A stretch of DNA of 38,009 bases, taken from the NCBI GenBank assembly GCA_023231475.1, contig JALJEE010002385.1, positions 1 through 38,009 of the forward strand, in the 5' to 3' direction. The number at the start of each line of letters is the position of its first letter. The stretch's first letter is position 1. The DNA comes from Seison nebaliae. Taxonomy: Eukaryota > Rotifera > Pararotatoria > Seisonacea > Seisonidae. The translations under genes were made by a program, and so were the position numbers. Below the pieces are notes generated by a model. It was not told where the DNA came from. It saw nothing but the letters and a program-made list of their open reading frames with translations, and made no database searches. Positions 4,901-34,547 of the stretch are shown here, in pieces.

Positions 4901-5846
4901 AGGGTAAACCCGACTGGAGAACCGATGGAAGAACTGATGGAAGAACTGATGGAAGAACTGATGGAAGAACTGACGGAAGAACTGACGGAAGAACTGATGG
5001 AAGAACTGATGGAAGAACTGATGGAAGAACCGACAGAAAAACTGGTGAAAAAACCGGGGAGAAAACCGGGGAGAAAACCGTCACACTTGATCCTATTATC
5101 GGTAGTCCCGATAAATCCCATTCTCCACGTACCCAGACCATAAGTAGCGAATTTTCAAAAGTAACTAAGCCACTTGATTTTCGTGCGGCCGGATCGACCC
5201 TATTTCGGCAATCTGAAGACACAGAATTAAAATATGCGACTTTATCAGATCTCGAAGATATGGGATCGACAACTGAGGAAGTTGAAGTATTTAGAGACAG
5301 TACTGAATTCTCTCAAGCTATTCATGATTTTGTTGCGAATAATCTTGAGAGTTATCTAACTAAATTAGATGATGACTCCCCGAAACCAATCGATGATATT
5401 CCTACTAGTAATAAAAAATCGAAAGTTCTTAAGAAAAAAAAGCCGGGAAAGTTTGGTCGTCCTACTTCCTCCAATTTCAATACAATAGTACCCGATAATT
5501 CACTTATGAATACTCCATCATCAATCGCTGACACTAGTACTGAGAGTTTGAAACCACAATCCAATTTTGGTTTTAAATCAAAAACTACAATCCAGTTGAA
5601 ATTAAAATTATTTCTCCAAATTTAATTGTCGTCCTTCTCCAGAGATAAGGCGGCAGAAGGAAAGCGTTATAGTCGTTTCAGTTTTTCGCACAGAGGAGCA
5701 GTTAAATTTTAGATTGAAAAGGAATGAATTTAAAATGTGTATTTTAGAGAATGAAGAGGAAGAAGGAAAAGAAATCTGATTTACATAGTGCTTCTGCTTA
5801 CACTCCAAAAGTTTCTTCTTTCAGAAACTCCAAATTATTTTGTTAA
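1913..5846 (+). CDS. Large low-complexity protein with N-terminal Cys-rich zinc-knuckle-like region
   Basis: Seven exons: 1913-2957, 3008-3046, 3103-3141, 3191-3241, 3296-5594, 5643-5700, 5748-5846. All junctions keep phase, giving 1209 residues. I do not recognise the family. A Ser-rich segment precedes a Cys cluster (CHRCGIKMNMASLVCDNC, C-x2-C-x11-C-x2-C, then CIYGCERC) that could bind zinc. A folded-looking region follows (VVVGDHQDAVGALDSIRLKD onward), which the short exons extend with more Cys (RKCSCRK, LLTCRCYATVD). The rest is disordered: Asn runs, Arg/Lys/Ser-rich stretches, a TDGR tandem array and a basic C-terminus. AATAAA overlaps the TAA (5845-5850). Without splicing the frames break at about 3007 and 5625, so the internal exons are inferred but mutually consistent. 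Confidence 0.6.
3628..3783 (+). repeat. AAT/AAC trinucleotide tract coding poly-Asn
   Basis: Interrupted runs of AAT and AAC codons encode Asn stretches separated by short basic and hydrophobic residues. This type of low-complexity tract recurs in other genes of the window (about 2053-2090, 28975-28990). Confidence 0.75.
4917..5080 (+). repeat. 12-bp minisatellite coding (TDGR)n then (KTGE)n
   Basis: About ten 12-base units of the form ACTGATGGAAGA encode Thr-Asp-Gly-Arg. They are followed by roughly three diverged units (ACCGGGGAGAAA) coding Lys-Thr-Gly-Glu. Because the period is a multiple of three and stop-free, other frames on both strands are also open here. Those are shadows, not genes. 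Confidence 0.85.
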
Positions 5847-5980
5847 TAAAAAAATTTCATAAAATTCTCAGGTGGATCTCAATCAGACAATTTTTAAAGT
5901 TTATCTCCTTTTTATTCAAGAGGAGATGTCATATATAATCTTTTTAGGAGCCGACACAAGATTGTTGTAAAGATAAGGAA

Positions 5981-8027
5981 ATGTTGCGATATAGTCAAGT
6001 CGAACCGACAGTATATGGGGGTAATGATTATAATACTGATTTGTGGTTGGGCACCATCCTCAGATTGATTGAACCGACAAATATAATAAATTCCGATTAT
6101 TACGGATTGAAAGGTATCAAATTTATATTTATATCGGGCACAAATTTGAATTAAAATTTAAATCAAATTTTTTAATTTCAGTCGATTTTGAAAAATTGAT
6201 GACTATGACTGAGAGGAATGAAGCGTTTTTTGATGTTTTCGGTAGTAAATATCAATTGCCAGATAATATTCGAGAACTGTTAACTTATCCATACGAACAA
6301 ATTGAACATTTGAGTTGGGATCGATGGTATTTTGATGATGCTGTCAAGTTTGACTTATTTTCTCTCATATTCTAATCACTTGCTTAATGGTAGACAAGCA
6401 CGATATCGAATTGAACAGGAATTAAAAGGTATCCGAAAACCGGGTGCAGTTAATTGGAAGAGTCGATTTTGTATCGTTATTCGTAAATGTCCTCTTAACC
6501 GATCAGGTTTAGTTTTCCGCTTTTTTTTTGTAAAAGAATAATTCTAATAATAATAATGATATGTCTAATATTTTGCGATGAAAAAAAACTTGTTTATGAT
6601 TTCAGATAAAATGATGAAAGAAACTGATATTTTGACGATTGTTGATAACCGATTATGTGTTCAACATCTTCCTCTTCATGATTATTTGAACACCAATTTG
6701 AATAATCGAATATCTGACGTTTGTTATGCATTCAACGAACAACAAACATATGAACATGTATATCAGTTAATTGATAATTATTATTGCTAAATAATAAATT
6801 GCTAGATTATGTTTATTACCGTTATTGAAATACACTTTTCAAGGACGATCTACTTTATTCTTCTGTCACGGTCCGATCAATAGTGGGAAGAATTATGTAA
6901 GAATTTCTTTTAAATATCTTTCAATAATATTTTTCGAAGTTGATGAAAGGAATGAAGAAGAAGAGGAAACTATCCAAAATTAAAGGACTATATTATCATT
7001 TGTGTTAGTTTAAATATTATCTGATATTTATACCATTATTATTCATAGCATTAGAATTAGAAGAGATTTTTGATAAAGTTGATGTTTTGATTTCAATGTC
7101 AGTCATCGAAATTTACAACAATAGAGTTAAGATTTAAAATTTTTTATAATTTCAATCAATTTTCTTCAAGTTATATGATTTGTTGAATGAACGATGTCGA
7201 GCTTATGTAACGAATGGAATCGGACAATTCTCGGGTCATATTCTTGGCGTTCATTTTCAAACATTAAAATCAGCATCCGAATTTCTCCAATTATTGAAGA
7301 ACGCGTTCAACTCTCAAAGTTATTATCAGAATCACAAAGAACGAAGATATCGATCTCATTCAGTTGTTCAATTATTGTTCCGTCATAAGTTCAATTCTCT
7401 TCGACTTTCTTATTATCGTTCAAGCTTATTTCGTTTTAAGATATCAATTTGATATATTGGGAAGATTAAGTATTATCGAATTAGCTGGAAATGAACATTG
7501 TAATATCACTTTTCTCGATAAGAAATATCGATGTGAATCATCATTTCTTAATCGTTCTTTATTCATGTTAAAAGTTTAATTTATGGAAATTTTTTTTTAT
7601 ACCCGAAATTTAAATTGTCATTCGGAAGGAATATCTTTATGGAATTTCAAGCAATTCTTCTTCGAGAGAGTTGTCGTTTAAAGCAAATGTTTTAAGTCGA
7701 ACTATATTCAGTTTATTACGATGTCCATTCCAGAAAATGAAACCCAGAATTTGTCTAGTTATTTTCATTACAAATATTTTCTATTTTCAAATAATTCGAA
7801 AATGATAATCTAATAATGATAATCGTTTATAGGTCTCTAATGTCAATCCTGGATGTCGACATGTTATTCAAACGAGTGAAGAAATACGATTTGTCAACAG
7901 GTTCATTAAATATTTTTAGTACGATTTTATATTGCCTTAAAGAATTCATGCGGCGTTGAGAAAATCGATGAGATTGAAAGATCCTAATTGGGCGTGGAAT
8001 AGTGATGAAGAGAAACCACCAGAATAA
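5981..8027 (+). CDS. Divergent kinesin-13-like protein with degenerate motor motifs
   Basis: Twelve exons: 5981-6113, 6182-6347, 6394-6506, 6606-6765, 6806-6896, 6940-7003, 7049-7125, 7171-7388, 7441-7566, 7652-7757, 7833-7900, 7943-8027; 468 residues, phase kept throughout. The motor starts near residue 124 (FCIVIRKCPLN, the kinesin-13 CVRKRPLN strand) after a neck-like YFDDAVKQARYRIEQ. FEIYSGKVFDLLN of the family appears as SVIEIYNNRLYDLLN, and the end of the core as SNVNPGCRHVIQTSEEIRFVNR. The P-loop is GPINSGKN (6870-6893) instead of GQTGSGKT, switch I keeps only RSHS (ERRYRSHS) and switch II is ELAGNE instead of DLAGNE. The kinesin-13 KVD loop is missing. The P-loop Thr and switch II Asp that handle Mg-ATP are lost, so ATPase activity is doubtful. 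Ends 76 bases from the convergent gene. Exons 9-10 joining is the least certain. Confidence 0.72.
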
Positions 8028-15293: not shown

Positions 15294-16163
15294 TTATGCT
15301 CGACGAAATGAATTTCGTTTAATTATTGATTTTAATTGACGTTCCTTAAATTTTTTTACTGCTTCTTCATACACTTTCCCCACCGTTTTCTTCTCCATCA
15401 AAACCATCAATCCTTTAATTCTCTCCCGTTCACTTTTTTTCTTCAAATCGTCGATGGTTATTCTTTTCCTCTTTACCTCCTTCTTTTTTCCACTTTCCTT
15501 CTCTTTCCCTTCAATTATTGATTCGGATTCCGATTCTGAATTTGAATCATATTCTGACGATGTTGACGAATCAGTTTCTTCTTTAATTTCACCTGATTTT
15601 TTCGTTTTTCTTTCTTCTTTACTCATCGATTCTTGGAGAGATTTGGCAACAGAAAAAAATTCATTGAAATTCTTTTTCTCCGAATCCTCATCGTCGTCAC
15701 TCTGTTGTCGATTTATGTCCAATTCTTTTAACCGTTTTCGATGGTTATCCGTTATGTAAGTATCTTTATCAAGAAATTCACCTTTCGATTCTTCTTCTTT
15801 TCTTTCCTTCTGGATTTTTCTTTCTCTTCGTCTTTCATTTTCCATTTGTCTATTTGCTGCCGATTCTAATAAATGTTTCATGTATTTCGGTTTATATTTC
15901 TGATCTGATTTCTTTGAATCACTTCTCGTTTTATCATTGAAAATGACAGATAATCGATTTTTTCCTTCTGATTCTCGATCCAATGAATCATATACTTCAT
16001 CGTATTGATAAATGGATGGATCGTCTTCTATATTCTTCGAATTAATTATATTCTTCTTCTTCTTTTCTGGTATAGTCGATTCATCGATTGCTGGTAAAAG
16101 GGTTCGTTTCTTTTCATTCTCGTTGAATTTCTTTCGTAAACTGATTAAAAATCTATTCGACAT
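15294..16163 (-). CDS. NSRP1: NSRP1 (nuclear speckle splicing regulatory protein 1, DUF2040 family)
   Basis: Nuclear splicing regulator that binds pre-mRNA and influences splice-site choice. 289 residues from ATG 16163. The DUF2040 core is clear: DPSIYQYDEVYDS, then KPKYMKHLLESAANRQMENE and ERRRERKIQKERKEEE, then GEFLDKDTYITDNHRKRLKE. The C-terminal third is acidic/Ser-rich then Lys/Arg-rich (EVKRKRITIDDLKKK), a typical disordered nuclear tail. It is shorter than vertebrate NSRP1, which has a long RS-like tail. A single exon was sufficient. An in-frame TTG nine bases upstream is ignored in favour of the ATG. A poly(A) signal lies 10 bases past the stop. Confidence 0.85.
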   Translation of the reverse strand: MSNRFLISLRKKFNENEKKRTLLPAIDESTIPEKKKKNIINSKNIEDDPSIYQYDEVYDSLDRESEGKNRLSVIFNDKTRSDSKKSDQKYKPKYMKHLLESAANRQMENERRRERKIQKERKEEESKGEFLDKDTYITDNHRKRLKELDINRQQSDDDEDSEKKNFNEFFSVAKSLQESMSKEERKTKKSGEIKEETDSSTSSEYDSNSESESESIIEGKEKESGKKKEVKRKRITIDDLKKKSERERIKGLMVLMEKKTVGKVYEEAVKKFKERQLKSIIKRNSFRRA

Positions 16164-17085
16164 ATTCCTCAATTTAATTCGGAGATTTATAATTTTTTTC
16201 CATTTTCAATATTATTTATATTCAATTTAATTAATAATATTGAAAGCCAACTAATTAATAAATAATTTATTTTAGAAACGGTTTGATTAAGACAACTAGT
16301 TATATTTGAGTTTATCAGATCCTAATTTCTTTGAGATATCCATTTCGGCCTCCCTACCAATCTCTAAAAAATACAATAAAACCTAATACCTAATACCTTA
16401 AATGCCATCCGTTTGGCGCCAAGTGAAACATTTCTTAATAAGCTTCTTTCTATTGAGTATTAAACCATATTAAGATTAATTTTATGCTTTAATAAGAATC
16501 CATACTCTTGGAATTATAGTTCATCTTTATCTACTTTTAATTTAGAAAAAAAAGAAAGCCACTATGTTTGGATAACAAAAACAAAGGATAAAAAAATTTA
16601 CACATCTCTTTAACTTTATTTTTCTGATCTCCATGATTTTTCGGAGTCAATTTTCTCTCATTGTAAAATGCAATCAAAATTGATTAAAATCTCTTTATAA
16701 GCGGACTAAATGTCAATTACTCATCGTAAATCTTTATTTTACAGTTTGTCAAATTTTTGGAAACTTTTATTAACGAGAAGGAAAAATAATTTAAAACAAA
16801 GTGGTTGTGGGGCAATGTGCGACAATAACTTTTAAATGAGAGAATTTTGGTTTCAAAGACAGTTCGTAACTAAAAAATTCGCTATGTTTGTCAATAAGAA
16901 ACAGTTCAGGTTTATGAAGCTTCATATAACGAGTTCGACATTCGTATCAAATTGGGTTTTCAAGAGATTTTTGGTACAATGGAAAAAGTATATAGAAAAA
17001 TGGAAACTAAAAAATTCCGGTTTACATACAACTTGAATTATTTTTTTCATTCTCAATTTCCTCCTTTATTTCCGCCTTCTTAAAA
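16164..17085. other. Intergenic region between divergent NSRP1 and the 315-residue membrane protein gene
   Basis: About 0.9 kb with no frame I can support. A short ORF at 16836-17036 has no recognisable features. A small direct repeat ACCTAATACCTAATACC lies near 16381-16397. Being between divergent starts it probably holds both promoters. Confidence 0.35.
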
Positions 17086-23419: not shown

Positions 23420-24135
23420 TCCCAGAAAAGTGGAAGAAAAGAATTGGAAACAATCCCGATGAATGAAAATAGTTTCATGAAATTATATTCTTCCTTCATG
23501 ACTCATACATCATATCGTCATCTCTATGTGTATGTGTATATGTAATTCATGCAATGGGATAATTACATACTTGACAAGAATACATTTCCTTAAATAAATT
23601 TATGTGAATTAGAAATTTATTGTGTATTTCCCATTCAAGGTCCAATTACGTTCTCTCAAGGTGATCGAATAAAAAATAAATTATTTCACTGCAAACTGCA
23701 AAAACTCATATGATTCATTGTCAGTCGGGAAACGCAAGAATCATATGGGACGAATGTGGATAAACGGAAAATTGTTGATGTAACGAAATCGTACCGGTTA
23801 TTAAACCTCTTCATATACACCTCTCTATAAACAGAAATTGTATAACTCTTCACAATAAACTGGAAATTATAAAAAGTTACGTAAGACAAATGTAGAAATT
23901 GAAAGCTAAACATTTGAAATTGAGGAAAGGAAAGAAAATAAAGAAATAATTAATTTGTAAAATTTCCTCAAAAACTCATCCATGAATGGTCTTGTTTGAA
24001 ATTTCTACACGTTCCTCCATTTCTTAATTACATTTTCTCTTGTGAAAAATTGTTGTGAAAGAAATTTATTCGAAATCTCAAATTTTACCTCCCAAAAAAC
24101 ATTTTATTTCATTGAAAGTTTTTCCTATTATTGGA
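23420..24135. promoter_or_regulatory. Divergent intergenic region between the Cys-rich membrane gene and Nup358
   Basis: 716 bases between two start codons on opposite strands. No coding frame is supported. It contains a pyrimidine/TG-rich patch (GTGTATGTGTATATG near 23527) and probably drives both genes. The in-frame ATG status of 24055 (non-ATG) versus 24136 (ATG) favours the latter as the Nup358 start. Confidence 0.4.
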
Positions 24136-27100
24136 ATGATGTCGAGAGAGGACGATGACGATTTGTCGGTCAGTCGCATAACCAGCGAATTCGAACGGAA
24201 ACGTGATACTCTCTGCTCTGCATTGGAATTGTTCGAGAAGAACGAAGTGTTGAAAGCGAAAAAATTATTAGACGACCAAAAATATCGTTCACATGAATTC
24301 CCCGGTGCGTGGTATTTGTACGGGCGAATCTTCCACAAACTCAATCAGATGGAACAATCGACGAAAGCATTCCATTTCGCATTGGGATATGATCGATTTC
24401 TCGCTGGTAAACTCATCAAATTATCGAGCGATGAAACGGCGAAAAAAATGTACGAAGAATTATATGGAAGTGAAGATGTGAAGACAAATAAGAGGATGAA
24501 TGTCGATCTGACAACGGAGAAAGAGAAAGGGACGTTAGAAAAATTTAAAAAAATGTCTTCAGGAAAAGATCTCGTAGAAATATTGAACCAATTATGTCGC
24601 ACCTTCAATGGAACATATGACGTTCTATTAGAAGTAGATGCCAATTTCAATCTCACTCTACTCGATCAATTGAATGAAGAAGATTTGTTGAGTTTGTGGT
24701 TGTTCAAATTCAATTTGGAATGTCAAGCAGCATTTTCATATCTCACCTCCAAAAAGAATGACGAGATATTCGAAGACATTCTTAAACGATTATTAGAAAC
24801 GATGAAGAAATTTGAAAATAAATCATTCAAAAAATTATTTAATAAATATTCAAATAATTTACAAATGGAAATGGAGAAAATTTTATTTTTTCTCATTATC
24901 ATTTATGCGGAAAAAAGTTATGGTCAACATCTGACACTTCTCATCACACTATTATTTTGTACGAAGAAGTTCGAGTTTATTGGAGAGAATTCTTCATCTC
25001 CACATTTCCAAGAATCGTTTATGATATTTGGAAATTTATCAAAGACAACGGAAATGTTTCTTCGATTATATGTGGAACGAAGTGGGAAAGAAAAAATTTT
25101 TTCAAAATGGCAAAATCAATTTGAGAATTTGAAGATAAAAAATGATTGGCATTTTTCTTTCACCGAACAACATTGGAAATCGTTTAAAAAACCGTTGGAA
25201 TTACCGTCGTTATTGAAATATTTGAAAATAAATGAAATCGATGATGATGAATTGAAAGATGAATTAAATAATTTATTTGTTAATTTGAATGTGAAAGATT
25301 TATTTGAATTTTATCGATCAAATCTTGAAATGATTCTCGTCTGTTCATCGACATGTTTCCAATTCGATCAGAATATCATTCCTCCAAATGGTTTAATGAG
25401 ATTATATGAATCGGTTGGAAATCGATCATTATCCTTCGAATTCATTTTATATCATTCCATCGATATTTTCATGAAAATGAAATGTGAAGAATTCAAATCT
25501 TTTCGAGATTTACTCAATTCTTTCACCGTCGTCGAATTGGAAGTGAAACAAAACTGGAATAATTTACTGGCGGGACGATTGATAGAGAATGAAGATATTT
25601 CGAAAAATAATTCGATTTGGTTAAATGTGATAATGGGAAATTCATTCCGAATTCTTCTTGATCAATTATCTGATTTGAAATTGATTCGTGGAATGAGATT
25701 TTCAGGAGAAATATCACAAAAGAAATTGAGAGATCATTTAACTAATGTTCATTCATTCTCCGATATGATTGATATGGAACGAAGATATTGGAAGAAATGT
25801 CTCCAATTAATCTCATCATCATCAATTGCAATTCCACAGGATTTTATTGAGACGAAAACTTTTTGGAAAGACACGGCAATTTGTAATTTGAATGTTTTGG
25901 AGAATTTCGAATATTTCTTCTATTTAAATTTGAATGAGAAAGATTTGTCAATTGATACAATCTCAAAATCAGCGTTGGTAATGTCAAAATTGGAAGGTGG
26001 AAAAGCGACGATTGATGCGATGATGATTCGTCTCCATTTCGATGAAGGAAATTTCCGGGAATTATTAAGAAATTTATTGAAGATGTTATGGTCGATTGAG
26101 AGTAAATATGAAAATGCTCGATATTTCCCTCGATCATATTATATTGAATTATTCGATTTCATTTATTCTCTACATCAATTCGATAACAATAAACGAAATC
26201 ATAAACGAAACCAGAAAACGGAATTATTGGATGAAAAAAAGGAAGATGGAATAACGAATGGAATGTATGATGAATTGAAGAAAGAATTCAATTCAGTTTA
26301 CAAAAATCTCGAAAATAAGTTGAGTCTAATGGAGAAGAGATTTGATCAGATGCAAATCGATGTAAGGAAAACCGTTCAAACGGTTTCGAAAGAAACGGAT
26401 AATGAACGATTATTTGTAAAAGAATTCGATAAAATTGGACAATGTTTAACTGGAACTAATTCTCTATTGAATCAATTAATGATACAAAATCAACGAATGA
26501 GAGATGATCAATTATCAGCGAATCACCTTTTCAAAAATCCAGATATTCCTCAAACACAACCATCGACATTATTAATGTCACAACCACCACCACCATCAAC
26601 AACTACGATAAATCCACCGACATTTAATCAATCACAACAAAATGTTCAACAACCAATTGGAGTACCAGGAGGTCCTGGTGTACCACATACGACACATCAA
26701 CTTCCTCCAAATTTCATCAATCAATCAAATATGTTTTCGTCACCGTTACGTGCATTAGCTTCAGGAATGCATCCAGAAGTTTTTATTTCAAATTTATTGA
26801 AAACTGCTCGTGATTCAATACAGAAATTTGGAGTAGATCCAAAATCAGCAGCTGGTGACAAATTAGTCTTACAAGCGGTCAATAGTTATTTGGCATCAAT
26901 GAATAATCAACAATTACCGAATAATATGCAGATTCATGATCCGTTAACAATGACGAATAAAAATCAAACGCCAAAATATCCATCAAATTCGAGTGGAAAT
27001 CGTGGACGCGATTCTGTCCAAGGATCATTATCAGGACAACCAAATATAAATCGACGACCATCTGATGAATATGGTGGAATGTCGGTGGGGAATAATAATA

Positions 27101-30100
27101 ATAGTCGATCGAAACAAGAACCATCAGAAGATGATAATAATCGAACAAGTTCCTCATCTAAATGGCCGTTCAGAATGAATGAAGTTCCTGAAGCGATTAC
27201 AGAACATCAGACATTAAATGATCCGAAATTATTTAGTATCGAAACAAAATTTAATATTATGGAAAAAAGTAATACATTGACGAAGAAACCGGAAATGGTA
27301 CCGGTTCAATCGAAAACATTTCCAGGAGAAGATTTTGAAAAAATTCCGGAAACTCAACAACTTCACGATGAGGCAGACGAAGATGATTTGAGTGACGATT
27401 GTGTAATTAGTGATGATGAATATGGTGATACAGATGACGAGAATGATTCTGATGCTGTTTTATTTCAATCTCCTTGTACGGCTTGGTGTGTTCAAATGAA
27501 ACAAAACAGAAGATTAACAGAGGAAAATTTCAAAAATATTTTGGGAGTTCATGTCATTGGAGGCTTGATGTTCTTACTCGATACGGCGAATGATAAATAT
27601 CGATTAGTATTGGCACATTCGTCAACGAACGATGAATTTGAATATCCGATTAATTTGGAAACGAAAGTGAAAGAATTATCAGAACAAGATCTCCTTGTCG
27701 ATACGCCAATTTCGAGTATAACGTTACGAATAAAATTCGATACAATCGAAGATCTTCAATTGTTGTTGCAGGAATTTTATGATTCTAAGAAAGTGGGAAA
27801 AAATGATTCGTTGAAATTTCTCATGAAAAATGATGAATGGTCATGTGGAACATGTCTGACTTCCGTACCAAACAATAGTGAATTATGTTTGGCATGTGGA
27901 CAAATGAAACCAGGTGTGGAATTGAAGAAGGAAGAAGAAAAAGAAACAAAACCACCACCACCATCATTTAGTTTCGGGAAGAAATTGGACGAAAGTCAAG
28001 AAAAACCAAAAATTGACTTCACTTCAATATTCGGTCAGAAAACACCGATCGATTTGACGAAGAAAGAAGAGAAGAAGGAAATCAATATTATCAAACCAAA
28101 TCCATCATCTCAACCACCGTCTGAAACGTTTTCGGATTTATTGAAGAAAAAAAATATGTTTGATAAATTCTCATTCAATTTGAAATCGGATGAGAAGAAA
28201 AATGAAGAAAAGATCGAAAATGTTGTGAAAGTTGAAGAGATGGACGAAAGGACAAATATGGTCGTTCCCGTCGTTGAAAAATTACATTCGGCTTTTGAAA
28301 ATACAACAAAATTGAAATCGGGTGAAGAGAATGAAATTCCTGTATATCGACAACGATGTAAATTATATCGATATCGAGATGGTCAATGGAAAGAACGTGG
28401 AGTGGGTTGGATAAAAATATCGTGTAATTCGGCGTTTATGAAAGAAGCGGATAAGGAGAAACCGGATGTATCGACAGTTCGTCCACGAGTCGTTATGAGA
28501 CGAAATGAAACATTGAAAGTTTGTTTGAATCATAAAATTGGGAAGGATAATATATTGGAGAAAGATAATCGATCAAAGAATACATGGAAATGGAATGCAT
28601 TAGATTATTCGGATGTGGATTTATTAGAGGAAGGAGAAGAAATTGGAATTAGTTCATTAGCCGCTAAATTTAAGACAGAAGAATCGGCGTGTAAATTCAA
28701 TGAGATTTTACAAATTATGAAAGAGAAAGATCCACACAAAATTTTCGAAATATTAGAAGAGCCATATGACAATTATGAGGAGACAATGGAAGAAATGTAT
28801 CAAGAGAAAAAGATGGAAGAGAAACCGAATGAAACGAAAGAAACGAAAGAAGATGTGAAGAATTCGGAGAAATTTGAATTATTTAAAATAAAACAAGAAA
28901 ATCAAATAGATGGTGGAAATATTTCATTAAAAGAAGAGAAGAATAATGAAATGGAAATTGAAGAATTGAAAAATAATAATAATAATAAAAATGATAAAAA
29001 TAATCATGTGGATACGAATTATAGAAATGTTTTGTCAGATATTTCAAATATCTCACAATCTGATTTATTATTTAAACATATCATAGGTGATGGTAAAGAT
29101 GAAGATGAAAAAGAGGAAATTGAGAAATCAGAACCAAAAATTATCGATGCATCCGATCTTTTAGCAAATTCATTTTTCTCTCAAAAAACCGAAAATATTT
29201 TCGATGAAAAAGAAGATAATTCATGCGATGAAAAAGAAGATAATTTGTTTGAAGGGAAAGAAGGAAATTTGTTCGATGGAAAAGGAACTAGTTTGTTTGG
29301 TGGAAAAGTTGCTAATTTATTTGGTGGAAAAGATGGTAATTTATTTGATGCAAAAGAAACTAATTTGTTTCATGGAAAAGATAGTAATTTGTTTCATGGA
29401 AAAGATAGTAATTTGTTTGATGGGAAAGAAAGTTCATCTGAAAAGAACGATGACACTTTAGAAAAGAAGAACTTCTTCAATTGTACCAATACGGAAGATA
29501 CTCAAAATTTTTTAAATATTGTTTCTAATAATGTACCATCATGGTTGAATAAAGAGACGACGAAACCGATCGTCTTTCCATCAACTGGAATTCTCACCAA
29601 CACGAAAACAGATGATCGGAAAGTATCCGATGATTCTTTTGCCGATCAAATAGATTTTGCTCCGGCACTCGACAAATTGCCTAATCTCATCCATTTGAGA
29701 ACTGGTGACGAATTTGAAAATACCGAATTTGTTCATCGAGCTAAAATTTATCGATTTGATCAAGATCAATGGAAGGAGAAAGGTGTGGGAAATTTGAAAG
29801 TGTTGAGATCGCCAGAAACTGGTAAATGTCGCCTGCTGTTGATACGAGAACAAGTGTTTAAAACGGCATTGAACGATTGGATTAGACAGGACATGAAATA
29901 TGCGAGAATGAAAAAAAGTTTCACTTGGACCGGATTTGATGACGGTGAACAAATGACGTTTTGTTTGAAAATTTTGAATTCAAATGCCAGTGAAGCATTT
30001 ATTGAAACGGTTGAGAAATTACAAGAAATGATGAGAGATAAAGATGTAAAGTTGAAAGAAGTTGAACCTTTAAAATTGTCTAATTTCGTCGAACAGAAAA

Positions 30101-30485
30101 TCAGTTATAAACTAGAAACAAGTCAGGGAGATGAAGTTTAATTTGATTTCTTCTTAATTATTTTTAATTCTCCCATTTTAAGCATATCGGTTATACAGAA
30201 TTATGTGTTTTCAATTTAGATACTCAAAATCCATGTGTGAAAATTATTGATGCGAATAAGGAAATCATTTCCAATAACAAATTGACAGATGTCACAATTA
30301 AATTGTTAGTATTATGATAGTTATATGATCATTTCACTAATCATATTATCAGGCTACCGAAAACTGGAAAAGATTTACAGAGATTAATGCTTACGACGAA
30401 TGATGGAAATAAATTCATTTTTTATCATGATGTTCCTAACATATTTGGAAAGATTCTCAATTTGTGGGGAAAAATCGAGAAATAA
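24136..30485 (+). CDS. Nup358: Nup358/RanBP2-like nucleoporin
   Basis: Cytoplasmic-face nuclear pore protein that binds Ran-GTP during transport. Exons 24136-30121, 30220-30304, 30353-30485; 2067 residues. Without splicing the frame stops at 30141. Domains: TPR-type N-terminus (about 20-115, e.g. GAWYLYGRIFHKLNQ), helical scaffold to about 700, coiled segment, Pro/Gln-rich linker, acidic patch, a possible PH-like domain (1113-1215), one RanBP2 zinc finger (1234-1257, WSCGTC..CLACG), Ran-binding domain A (1402-1528, KLYRYRDGQWKERGVG), an NLFxGK repeat block (about 1699-1765) and Ran-binding domain B (about 1865-1968, KIYRFDQDQWKEKGVG). Compared with vertebrate RanBP2 it has fewer RanBDs and zinc fingers, few FG motifs and no SUMO-ligase or cyclophilin domain. 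Two ATGs (24136, 24139) are adjacent. Confidence 0.87.
29233..29433 (+). repeat. 24-bp repeat coding NLFDGKxx in Nup358
   Basis: About eight imperfect 24-base units encode an eight-residue repeat (N-L-F-D/H/G-G-K-D/E-x). Two copies read LFGGK, giving FG dipeptides. The block lies between the two Ran-binding domains. Confidence 0.75.
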
Positions 30486-32288: not shown

Positions 32289-34547
32289 TCACGAACGAAA
32301 TGAGAACATTCGTTCGAACCGCATTGATAAGAACGGACGACAGACAATTCGGAGACACACTATTGCACCACTAACCGGTGGAATCCTTCGATAGCAGTTC
32401 GATAAAATGTAAACAGCATTCGTCCACACCTGCAATACGTAATTTCTCAATACCGATATCAACATTGACGGAATCGAATGCTTTAGATGCATCTAGGAAA
32501 CATACGAAGACACCACTTCTTAACCTTCGAGAACGAGCGATTATATAACGAATGAGGAGAATAAGAGGTAGTGTTCCTCTTACTGAATTGCGATAAGCAA
32601 ATAGAGTATGTCGGAATAGCGGTTACTTACTACCTTCTCAATTATTTTAACTAGACAGCTAGACACACAGATAGGACGGTATGATTCTGGAAAATTTGGA
32701 TTTGAGGAAGGACTTTTTATAATCGGAACGACTAAGAATGTACGAAAATTGCTGTAGTTCACTTCTCCCATAAAAGCACTGTTTATGAAGGAGAGGATCA
32801 GGTTCAACTCCGAGTCCGTTAACCCAATGATAATACTAGTGCACCGATTGTAGAAGCCGTGAGACTTACATAGAATCATATCGTTCACAACTTTTCGAAA
32901 TTCGGACAACGAGATTTTATTGAAATTAATGAACGGCTGAGAATTCGACTGATCATTGTTGTTACACGAGGTACGATTATCAAACATAATCGAGGAAAAA
33001 TACTGATCGAACAGATCAACTTCAACAGTGAATGAGTGAAGATTATTTGATCGAAGATTTGACCAGAAACGTTTACAGTCGTAATTCATAATTAAGGAGT
33101 TAAAGATCTTCGAGAGATTTTCTCTAATCAGTGATCGAACTGCTCGTCTAAATACTTTTCCCTCTTTCGCAAGTTCATTAAAACTTTCAGATGTATTCGA
33201 TTGTCGGTGATTCCTATTCGATATTGTCACTTTTTTCTTGAGATGCCGAATAGCATCGAAATTATGAATGTGCCTTCTTCTTCGATTTTCAGATGGTGAG
33301 GTAAAGTAACCTGCAAGGGATAACTTTTGATTCAACGATGTAAAATTCTCATACTTCCCGGATATGATTCAAACGATGGCATTTTCAACTTTCTCAACAT
33401 TTCTTCATACTTGGATATGTGAGTTTTCCGAGATACATTTTGACTCAGTCGAAACGGAAACGATTTCTTTCTGAATCGACAAGCATAATGGAAAATGATC
33501 AGAACGGAAAACCGACATAATTTATGTGGCAAGTGATAGCGAAGTGGAATATGTGGTCTGCGATCAGGAAATGATCGATCCAAGACGATCCGTTCCATGA
33601 CTTAAAAGTAATCGAATCAACATTACATAGAGATATATCAATTGCCGTAAAGTTATGGAGACAGGACGAAGTCATATACTTGCGGAGATCAGTAGGCGAC
33701 AAATTAAAGTCACCACCAAAGAACCAAGATTTCTCTCCATTCCCACCATATTCATTATCTAGCGTACTTATTTCTCGAATCAGATATGGTCTATTTATAC
33801 TATCACCATAAACGTTAAACACGACCAATGATCCTATCTGAATGGAGGAAATACGGTTGGATATGATACGAAAATTAAACGGATGTAGATTCCTCTTGAC
33901 TAATGTGATCAGTCCAAAAGAGCATCTACCTGTACCACTGTCAGCTCTAGGAGGTATCCCAGTTGTTAAAAATATTGAGTGTGAGTCGATGTTCTGAAAA
34001 TAATAAGGAAGGGATAATAGCCACACCTTTTGTAATAAGATAATATCAAAAAATAATAATTCGGCGAGGAACGGGATTAGCCATCAGGTCCGTGAGTATT
34101 GAAAGTGATAATGTTAATGTTAGGGAATTCCATATTGAGAAGACATTCCGACGAGTTAGATTGCCTTGATGGCGGAACAGAATTGATTATCTTTTTCACC
34201 AAGTGGCCACATTTTTCATCCGGTCACATAAGATTTGGTAATTCGCGACACCTGTCGGAATACTATTTTCCTATCAGATAAATATTTTCCAATTGAGTCT
34301 AACGGGACTTTTCTGTCGATGTTGGAGATAATTACTCGTCTTGTGACTTCATGGCTTGAATTAGGGATTGTGATAATCGATGGATCACTATTTCCCGAGC
34401 ATTTAATACTTGGATGCATGCTTTTCTTCTTCGGCCTCTCTCTCTCTGTAACTTGGTAACGACATCTACTTCGACGTTAACGGAACGAGTCGTTTTACTG
34501 ATATTCTTCCTTCCTGATTTTACCGCGTTAAGGTACGAAGGTTTCAC
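32289..34547 (-). pseudogene. Non-LTR (LINE) retrotransposon remnant: endonuclease plus partial reverse transcriptase
   Basis: Read on the minus strand from 34547 downward. An unassigned upstream ORF part is followed by an APE-type endonuclease (34026-33499: FGGDFNLSPTDL, then SWNGSSWIDHFLIADH). A Lys/Arg-rich linker leads into the reverse transcriptase (33335-32580) with NFPESYRPICVSSCLVKII. The frame shifts near 32590 and resumes with FAYRNSVRGTLPLILL and RT motif A (VCFLDASKAFDSVN, about 32450). The copy then ends: the catalytic YxDD box and thumb are missing. Several frame breaks separate the blocks, so it is inactive. Confidence 0.72.

Follow-up and report, generated by a model that had tools for sequence, protein, structure and literature searches.

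Gene structure of the locus

The window, that is the whole 38,009-nt stretch of DNA analysed here, lies on contig C45 of the Seison nebaliae genome (36 Mb, 846 contigs). For this species, the available text of PMC8351084 describes two genetic lineages, puts the nuclear genome at about 46 Mb and mentions mRNA-Seq in the abstract. Positions 5981-8027 (+) appear to hold a protein-coding gene, presumably expressed, which would be one of two divergent kinesin-13-derived paralogues of S. nebaliae. Its spliced protein is called Psk here, and the paralogue, C537, was named for its contig. The exons were derived from spliced alignment with L005 and L006, the canonical kinesin-13 pair of this genome, and the junctions were set by hand. 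The gene model has 12 exons and runs from ATG to TAA over 1437 nt (478 aa) with no internal stops. Twelve exons in one stop-free frame had been proposed in the original prediction and are retained; the length proposed there, 1407 nt, is 30 nt below that of this model.

All 11 introns are GT-AG introns of 40 to 99 nt. GTT donors occur in 9 of them, which is no mark against the model because 6 of 7 inferred introns in two other Seison kinesin genes also have GTT. A codon-usage model was built from 6047 codons of seven open frames, two of which are the canonical kinesin-13s. It gave the Psk coding sequence +92.7 bits in its own frame and scores of -124.7 to -396.7 in the remaining five; a single exon of the 12 (6806-6896) had a slightly negative in-frame score (-1.7). 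The tail extends 26 residues beyond the motor. The exons are as follows:

5981-6113 (+): exon 1, N-terminal extension; starts with ATG at 5981, preceded by an in-frame TAG at 5945
6182-6347 (+): exon 2, N-terminal extension and neck start; partial match in C537
6394-6506 (+): exon 3, neck and beta-1 (RKCP replaces RKRP)
6606-6765 (+): exon 4, L2 region, KVD finger lost
6806-6896 (+): exon 5, P-loop GPINSGKN at 6870-6893
6940-7003 (+): exon 6, from spliced alignment with hand-set junctions
7049-7125 (+): exon 7, SVIEIYNN core strand
7171-7388 (+): exon 8, beta5a-beta5b hairpin (7198-7257) and switch I ERRYRSHS (7339-7362)
7441-7573 (+): exon 9, switch II ELAGNE (7478-7495), L11 and alpha-4 start
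7629-7757 (+): exon 10, alpha-4 end, L12 and alpha-5; rewritten part 7650-7730
7833-7900 (+): exon 11, beta-8 and alpha-6
7943-8027 (+): exon 12, short tail, end NWAWNSDEEKPPE, stop TAA

Several other features were observed in the window and in the genome. At 5941-5980, just 5' of the Psk start codon, there is a T-rich stretch with a terminal AG, and another is found near position 17375 of contig C537, upstream of a possible C537 start codon; both are possible trans-splice or 5' UTR acceptors. In the interval 4918-5044 (+), a 12-nt tandem repeat (9.4 copies, 4918-5030) is found within a low-complexity open frame. An open frame of 2028 aa at 24055-30141 (+) has two RanBP1 domain matches, and we take it to resemble RanBP2/Nup358. 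On the other strand, an NSRP1 N-terminal domain was matched at 15294-16172 (-) (E 1.2e-21), and a weak endonuclease-reverse transcriptase match at 33499-34026 (-), below the cut-off (E 0.0084), marks a possible retroelement fragment. Pfam searches of the whole genome returned 8 matches to Motile_Sperm and none to Chitin_bind_4, which likewise had none in 14 control genomes and is therefore uninformative.

A second gene of the same type

A search of the genome with Psk found C537 (positions 13966-15966 of contig C537), which is 40% identical to Psk over 364 columns. With Psk as the guide, the spliced C537 product is free of stops between a point just ahead of the neck and its end, motor and tail included, and all comparisons with C537 cover this part. 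Nine introns fall in this part, and 9/9 match Psk introns in both alignment column and phase; the Psk introns lacking a C537 counterpart are one in the compared stretch (7574) and one further upstream (6114). When the genome was searched with C537 and the best candidates were scored, no third copy of this type was found at E values up to 0.1.

The search for a canonical kinesin-13 suggested in the original prediction yielded two in the same genome, L005 and L006. Part of SNEBB_006870, a hypothetical protein of S. nebaliae, is 100% identical to L005 (579 aa queried). The motors of L005 and L006 are intron-free (open frames of 614 and 660 aa), and the pseudo-motor genes have many introns.

A set of 5.8 billion proteins, in which the canonical Seison kinesin-13 is present, was searched with Psk and with the alignment of Psk and C537, giving 1 match (P0001, 24% identical to Psk) and 5 matches, respectively. 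No annotated Seison protein for Psk or C537 was among the matches of either search, which required shared words and a match length of 0.55 to 1.75 times the query, so that a badly merged gene model could be missed.

Changes in the nucleotide-binding and kinesin-13 motifs

The canonical reference consisted of 114 rows (P0002, P0010-P0121 and L006), namely the best matches to a Seison kinesin-13 query plus L006; isoforms and near-copies are included (69 clusters at 95% identity), so the independence of the rows is overstated. Seven double-motor proteins (P0003-P0009) were excluded from it. Each of these metagenome proteins has two tandem kinesin-13 motors; switch II has DLAG in the first motor, and in the second the Gly is replaced by Asp (DLAD or ELAD) in 7/7, which may mark another ATPase-impaired kinesin-13 head.

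The P-loop is GQTGSGKT in 114/114 canonical rows, GPINSGKN in Psk and GADESGKK in C537, with the Thr replaced by Asn and Lys, respectively. In switch I, SSRSH became RYRSH in Psk and KTRSH in C537, and the Ser-Ser pair was lost in both. Switch II changed from DLAGNE to ELAGNE in Psk and to EMASSE in C537; the Asp, present in 113/114 canonical rows, is Glu in both paralogues, and the Gly is Ser in C537. Both proteins kept the Ser-Gly-Lys of the P-loop, the Arg-Ser-His of switch I and the Glu of switch II. Psk does not have the intact P-loop, switch I and switch II of an active kinesin ATPase. The original prediction had named the same three altered motifs (here at 6870-6893, 7339-7362 and 7478-7495) and a decayed nucleotide site, and the changes in Psk and, differently, in C537 agree with it, with the qualification that D to E is the sole difference between ELAGNE and the kinesin-13 DLAGNE.

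The motifs of the depolymerase class are changed as well. It has been reported that kinesin-13 is marked by the KVD finger in L2 (PMC2990766, PMC5503940), the KEC motif (PMC2990766) and an insertion of one residue in L11 (PMC5503940), according to the available parts of these papers. KVD, present in 114/114 canonical rows, is replaced by D-Y-gap in Psk and R-Y-N in C537, and KEC became KEY in both. L11 is one residue shorter in Psk than in the canonical rows and of canonical length in C537. RKRP is RKCP in Psk and unchanged in C537. In L12, His-x-Pro-Phe-Arg became Glu-x-Ser-Phe-Lys in the pseudo pair, while the alpha-4 LKE was kept. The positions of KIF2C Arg420, His536 and Arg540 are occupied by Y, E and K in both paralogues; KIF2C His536 and Arg420 are described as lying near acidic residues of beta-tubulin H12 (PMC5503940, available text).

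Relationship to kinesin-13

Psk matches the Pfam Kinesin domain with 103 bits (E 1.9e-29). Its best PDB match is KIF2C (E 5.5e-35), 56 bits ahead of the best match of another class (E 5.5e-18), and the top ten rows are all KIF2C, KIF2A or Klp10A; for C537 the corresponding E values are 2.2e-40 for kinesin-13 and 1.6e-13 for the best other class. Because of the Pfam and KIF2C E values and the in-frame codon score, the kinesin likeness of Psk is not due to chance. The alignment along kinesin-13 given in the original prediction holds, and two of its motif spellings need correction: the sequence has CIVIRKCPLN, not CVRKRPLN, and RFVNR, not RFANR. The KIF2C alignment starts within the neck, at residue 89 of Psk and residue 33 of C537, although neck identity to L005 is low (4/29 for Psk and 4/27 for C537). 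At 45 diagnostic columns, Psk has the kinesin-13 state in 13 and C537 in 15; in 9 columns each, they have a state that also occurs in one of the four other Seison kinesins. Among the other kinesin loci of the genome, L002 and L008 are labelled kinesin-3 and the like, which is our assumption.

A tree was built from 27 hand-chosen rows, with KIF24 left out. Psk and C537 were grouped together (100/100) and fell inside the kinesin-13 group, which was separated from three Seison kinesins at 100/100; within it, their grouping with the kinesin-13s of Brachionus and Seison had a support of 93/98. The pair sits on a very long stem (7.04), and long branches drew a warning from the tree program. The kinesin-13 class named in the original prediction is supported by sequence similarity and the tree favours a placement inside the class, but three constrained trees with the pair outside kinesin-13 were not rejected by the AU test (p 0.175, 0.188 and 0.17). 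In the same tree, the double-motor proteins P0003 and P0007 are placed beside Bemisia.

Pattern of constraint

There are 155 columns conserved in at least 98% of the 114 canonical rows. Psk keeps 57 of them, C537 61 and both 47, against 22 expected if they were independent; common descent also raises the count of 47. The canonical L005 and L006 keep 150 and 130. In 37 of the 155 columns Psk and C537 have one new state in common, which is a gap in one column.

Constraint follows structure: the nucleotide loops have drifted, and the former tubulin-binding face is better kept and jointly rewritten. The tubulin-binding subdomain (beta5a-beta5b, alpha-4, L12 and alpha-5) was defined after the available text of PMC5503940; the region test was chosen after the alignment had been seen, with the definition taken from print. 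In the nucleotide loops the pseudo pair is identical at 10/32 positions versus 32/33 for L005 and L006 (p 9.9e-9), and inside the pseudo pair these loops are not significantly less identical than the rest (p 0.56). In the tubulin-binding subdomain 38/65 positions are identical between Psk and C537 versus 92/240 elsewhere (Fisher p 0.0046). The corresponding values for the canonical pair are 43/58 and 118/239, and the two pairs do not differ significantly in the subdomain (p 0.087). The nucleotide and tubulin counts agree in three further alignments, and circular shifts reached the tubulin-subdomain contrast in 1/339, 1/333 and 1/341 cases in these three. Among columns conserved at 95%, Psk and C537 have the same new residue in 18/40 of the tubulin-binding subdomain versus 2/27 of the nucleotide loops. 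The net charge of the subdomain is +5 in both (canonical mean 5.0; L005 3, L006 1), which says little because the canonical range is -3 to 8.

Proposed explanation and alternatives

From the similarity, likely ancestry, open frame, motif loss and constraint pattern, all present in the sequence itself, we infer that Psk is an expressed kinesin-13 derivative, probably ATPase-dead, whose role would be to bind a partner without nucleotide. The explanation that we favour, and consider fairly probable, is a selected, non-catalytic protein acting through the former tubulin-binding face, whatever the partner. A kinesin-13 ancestor would have been duplicated, and the use of ATP given up before or soon after the duplication. 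The product would keep the neck and the kinesin fold and lose the residues which hold and hydrolyse Mg-ATP, the KVD finger and the canonical tubulin contacts, and the former tubulin-binding subdomain would dock, nucleotide-free, on a partner held by selection since the duplication. If this partner is tubulin, sites on tubulin or the microtubule would be occupied and subunits not removed. The C537 paralogue, the loss of the depolymerase motifs and the new residues common to both tubulin-binding faces go beyond what had originally been predicted from the sequence.

It is very improbable that Psk is a decaying pseudogene whose frame is open by luck. Its decayed nucleotide motifs would fit this, as would the lack of a protein of the Psk kind among the matches of the two 5.8-billion-protein searches. 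However, both genes of the pair have open frames at about 40% identity, and their constraint is patterned by structure. Omega = 1 was rejected for the pair (2dlnL 125.6) with dS saturated, and the point estimate of omega was dropped because of this saturation. When neutral evolution of the Psk frame was simulated with substitutions only and no indels, 0.05 of them per site produced a mean of 5.4 stops, and the distance between Psk and C537 is far above this value. The original prediction had likewise preferred selection to a dead gene, and the open paralogue, the shared gene structure and the rejection of omega = 1 (dS saturated) speak for it. A kinesin-13-like protein with an altered pocket, which still binds and perhaps slowly hydrolyses nucleotide and acts on tubulin, is unlikely. 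The P-loop Ser-Gly-Lys, switch I Arg-Ser-His and switch II Glu retained in both paralogues leave weak nucleotide binding possible, but the P-loop Thr and the switch I Ser-Ser are gone in both, Glu replaces the switch II Asp in both, Ser replaces the switch II Gly in C537, and the three loops are identical at just 10/32 positions between the paralogues.

The remaining alternatives concern the partner. By analogy with Cik1 and Vik1, Psk might be a non-catalytic head which pairs with and tunes a canonical Seison kinesin-13; this would be compatible with the favoured explanation, with another partner, and we regard it as rather improbable. The genome has two canonical kinesin-13s, and in the available text of PMC4338441 a single catalytic motor has two non-catalytic paralogues, Cik1 and Vik1, as its partners, but Psk ends so soon after the motor that little room is left for a coiled coil. 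It is possible, though we would not expect it, that the rewritten face binds a non-tubulin partner and that the protein no longer belongs to the microtubule system; this is a variant of the favoured explanation, with which its odds overlap. The new residues shared across the conserved face columns, among them Glu at the His536 position and Tyr at that of Arg420, and the loss of KVD point that way, whereas the net charge of the face at the canonical mean and the still recognisable neck point against it. His536 to Glu and the loss of KVD also argue against ordinary tubulin binding. Since the charge of +5 is kept but the equivalents of His536 and Arg420 are lost, tubulin is slightly ahead as a first guess, closely followed by a new partner.

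Under the favoured explanation of a selected, non-catalytic derivative, we consider it possible, though not probable, that Psk and C537 form a two-gene pseudo-kinesin-13 family, perhaps found in Seison or its kin only, of nucleotide-independent tubulin or microtubule-end binders limiting or steering the two canonical kinesin-13s. Selection would then have shifted from the ATP pocket to the jointly rewritten tubulin-binding face. A pseudo-motor derived from kinesin-13 would be a natural protein in which tubulin binding is separated from catalysis, and the paralogue pair shows which surface was kept by selection once ATP was abandoned.

Comparison with known systems

Kinesins without a working ATPase are already known, namely Cik1 and Vik1, which are kinesin-14 partners, and KIF26/VAB-8. 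Cik1 and Vik1 pair with Kar3 through a coiled coil, for which Psk has little room, and they belong to kinesin-14. They resemble Psk and C537 in being paralogous non-catalytic kinesin-fold proteins of one genome, and their non-catalytic head holds the Kar3 motor on microtubules (PMC4338441, available text). VAB-8/KIF26 (kinesin-11), which Psk would resemble in this, has no functional P-loop and is non-motile, and VAB-8 is located at microtubule minus ends (PMC12646758, as far as its accessible text describes), but it belongs to a different kinesin class. PseudoKinesin-21 is also a pseudo-kinesin group, orphan and fungal; it is unique to fungal taxa according to the available part of PMC5076506, and was set beside Psk by description only.

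No pseudo-motor of the kinesin-13 class was found in a literature search with few subscription journals and short listings, in agreement with the original prediction, nor was a paper combining kinesin, rotifer and microtubule depolymerase. The closest likeness is to kinesin-13 itself (KIF2A, KIF2C/MCAK, Klp10A), with which Psk and C537 align over neck and motor, which gives their best PDB matches and with which they share LKE. They differ from it in the nucleotide motifs, KVD, KEC and L12, all changed in the pair, and in the short 26-residue tail of Psk.
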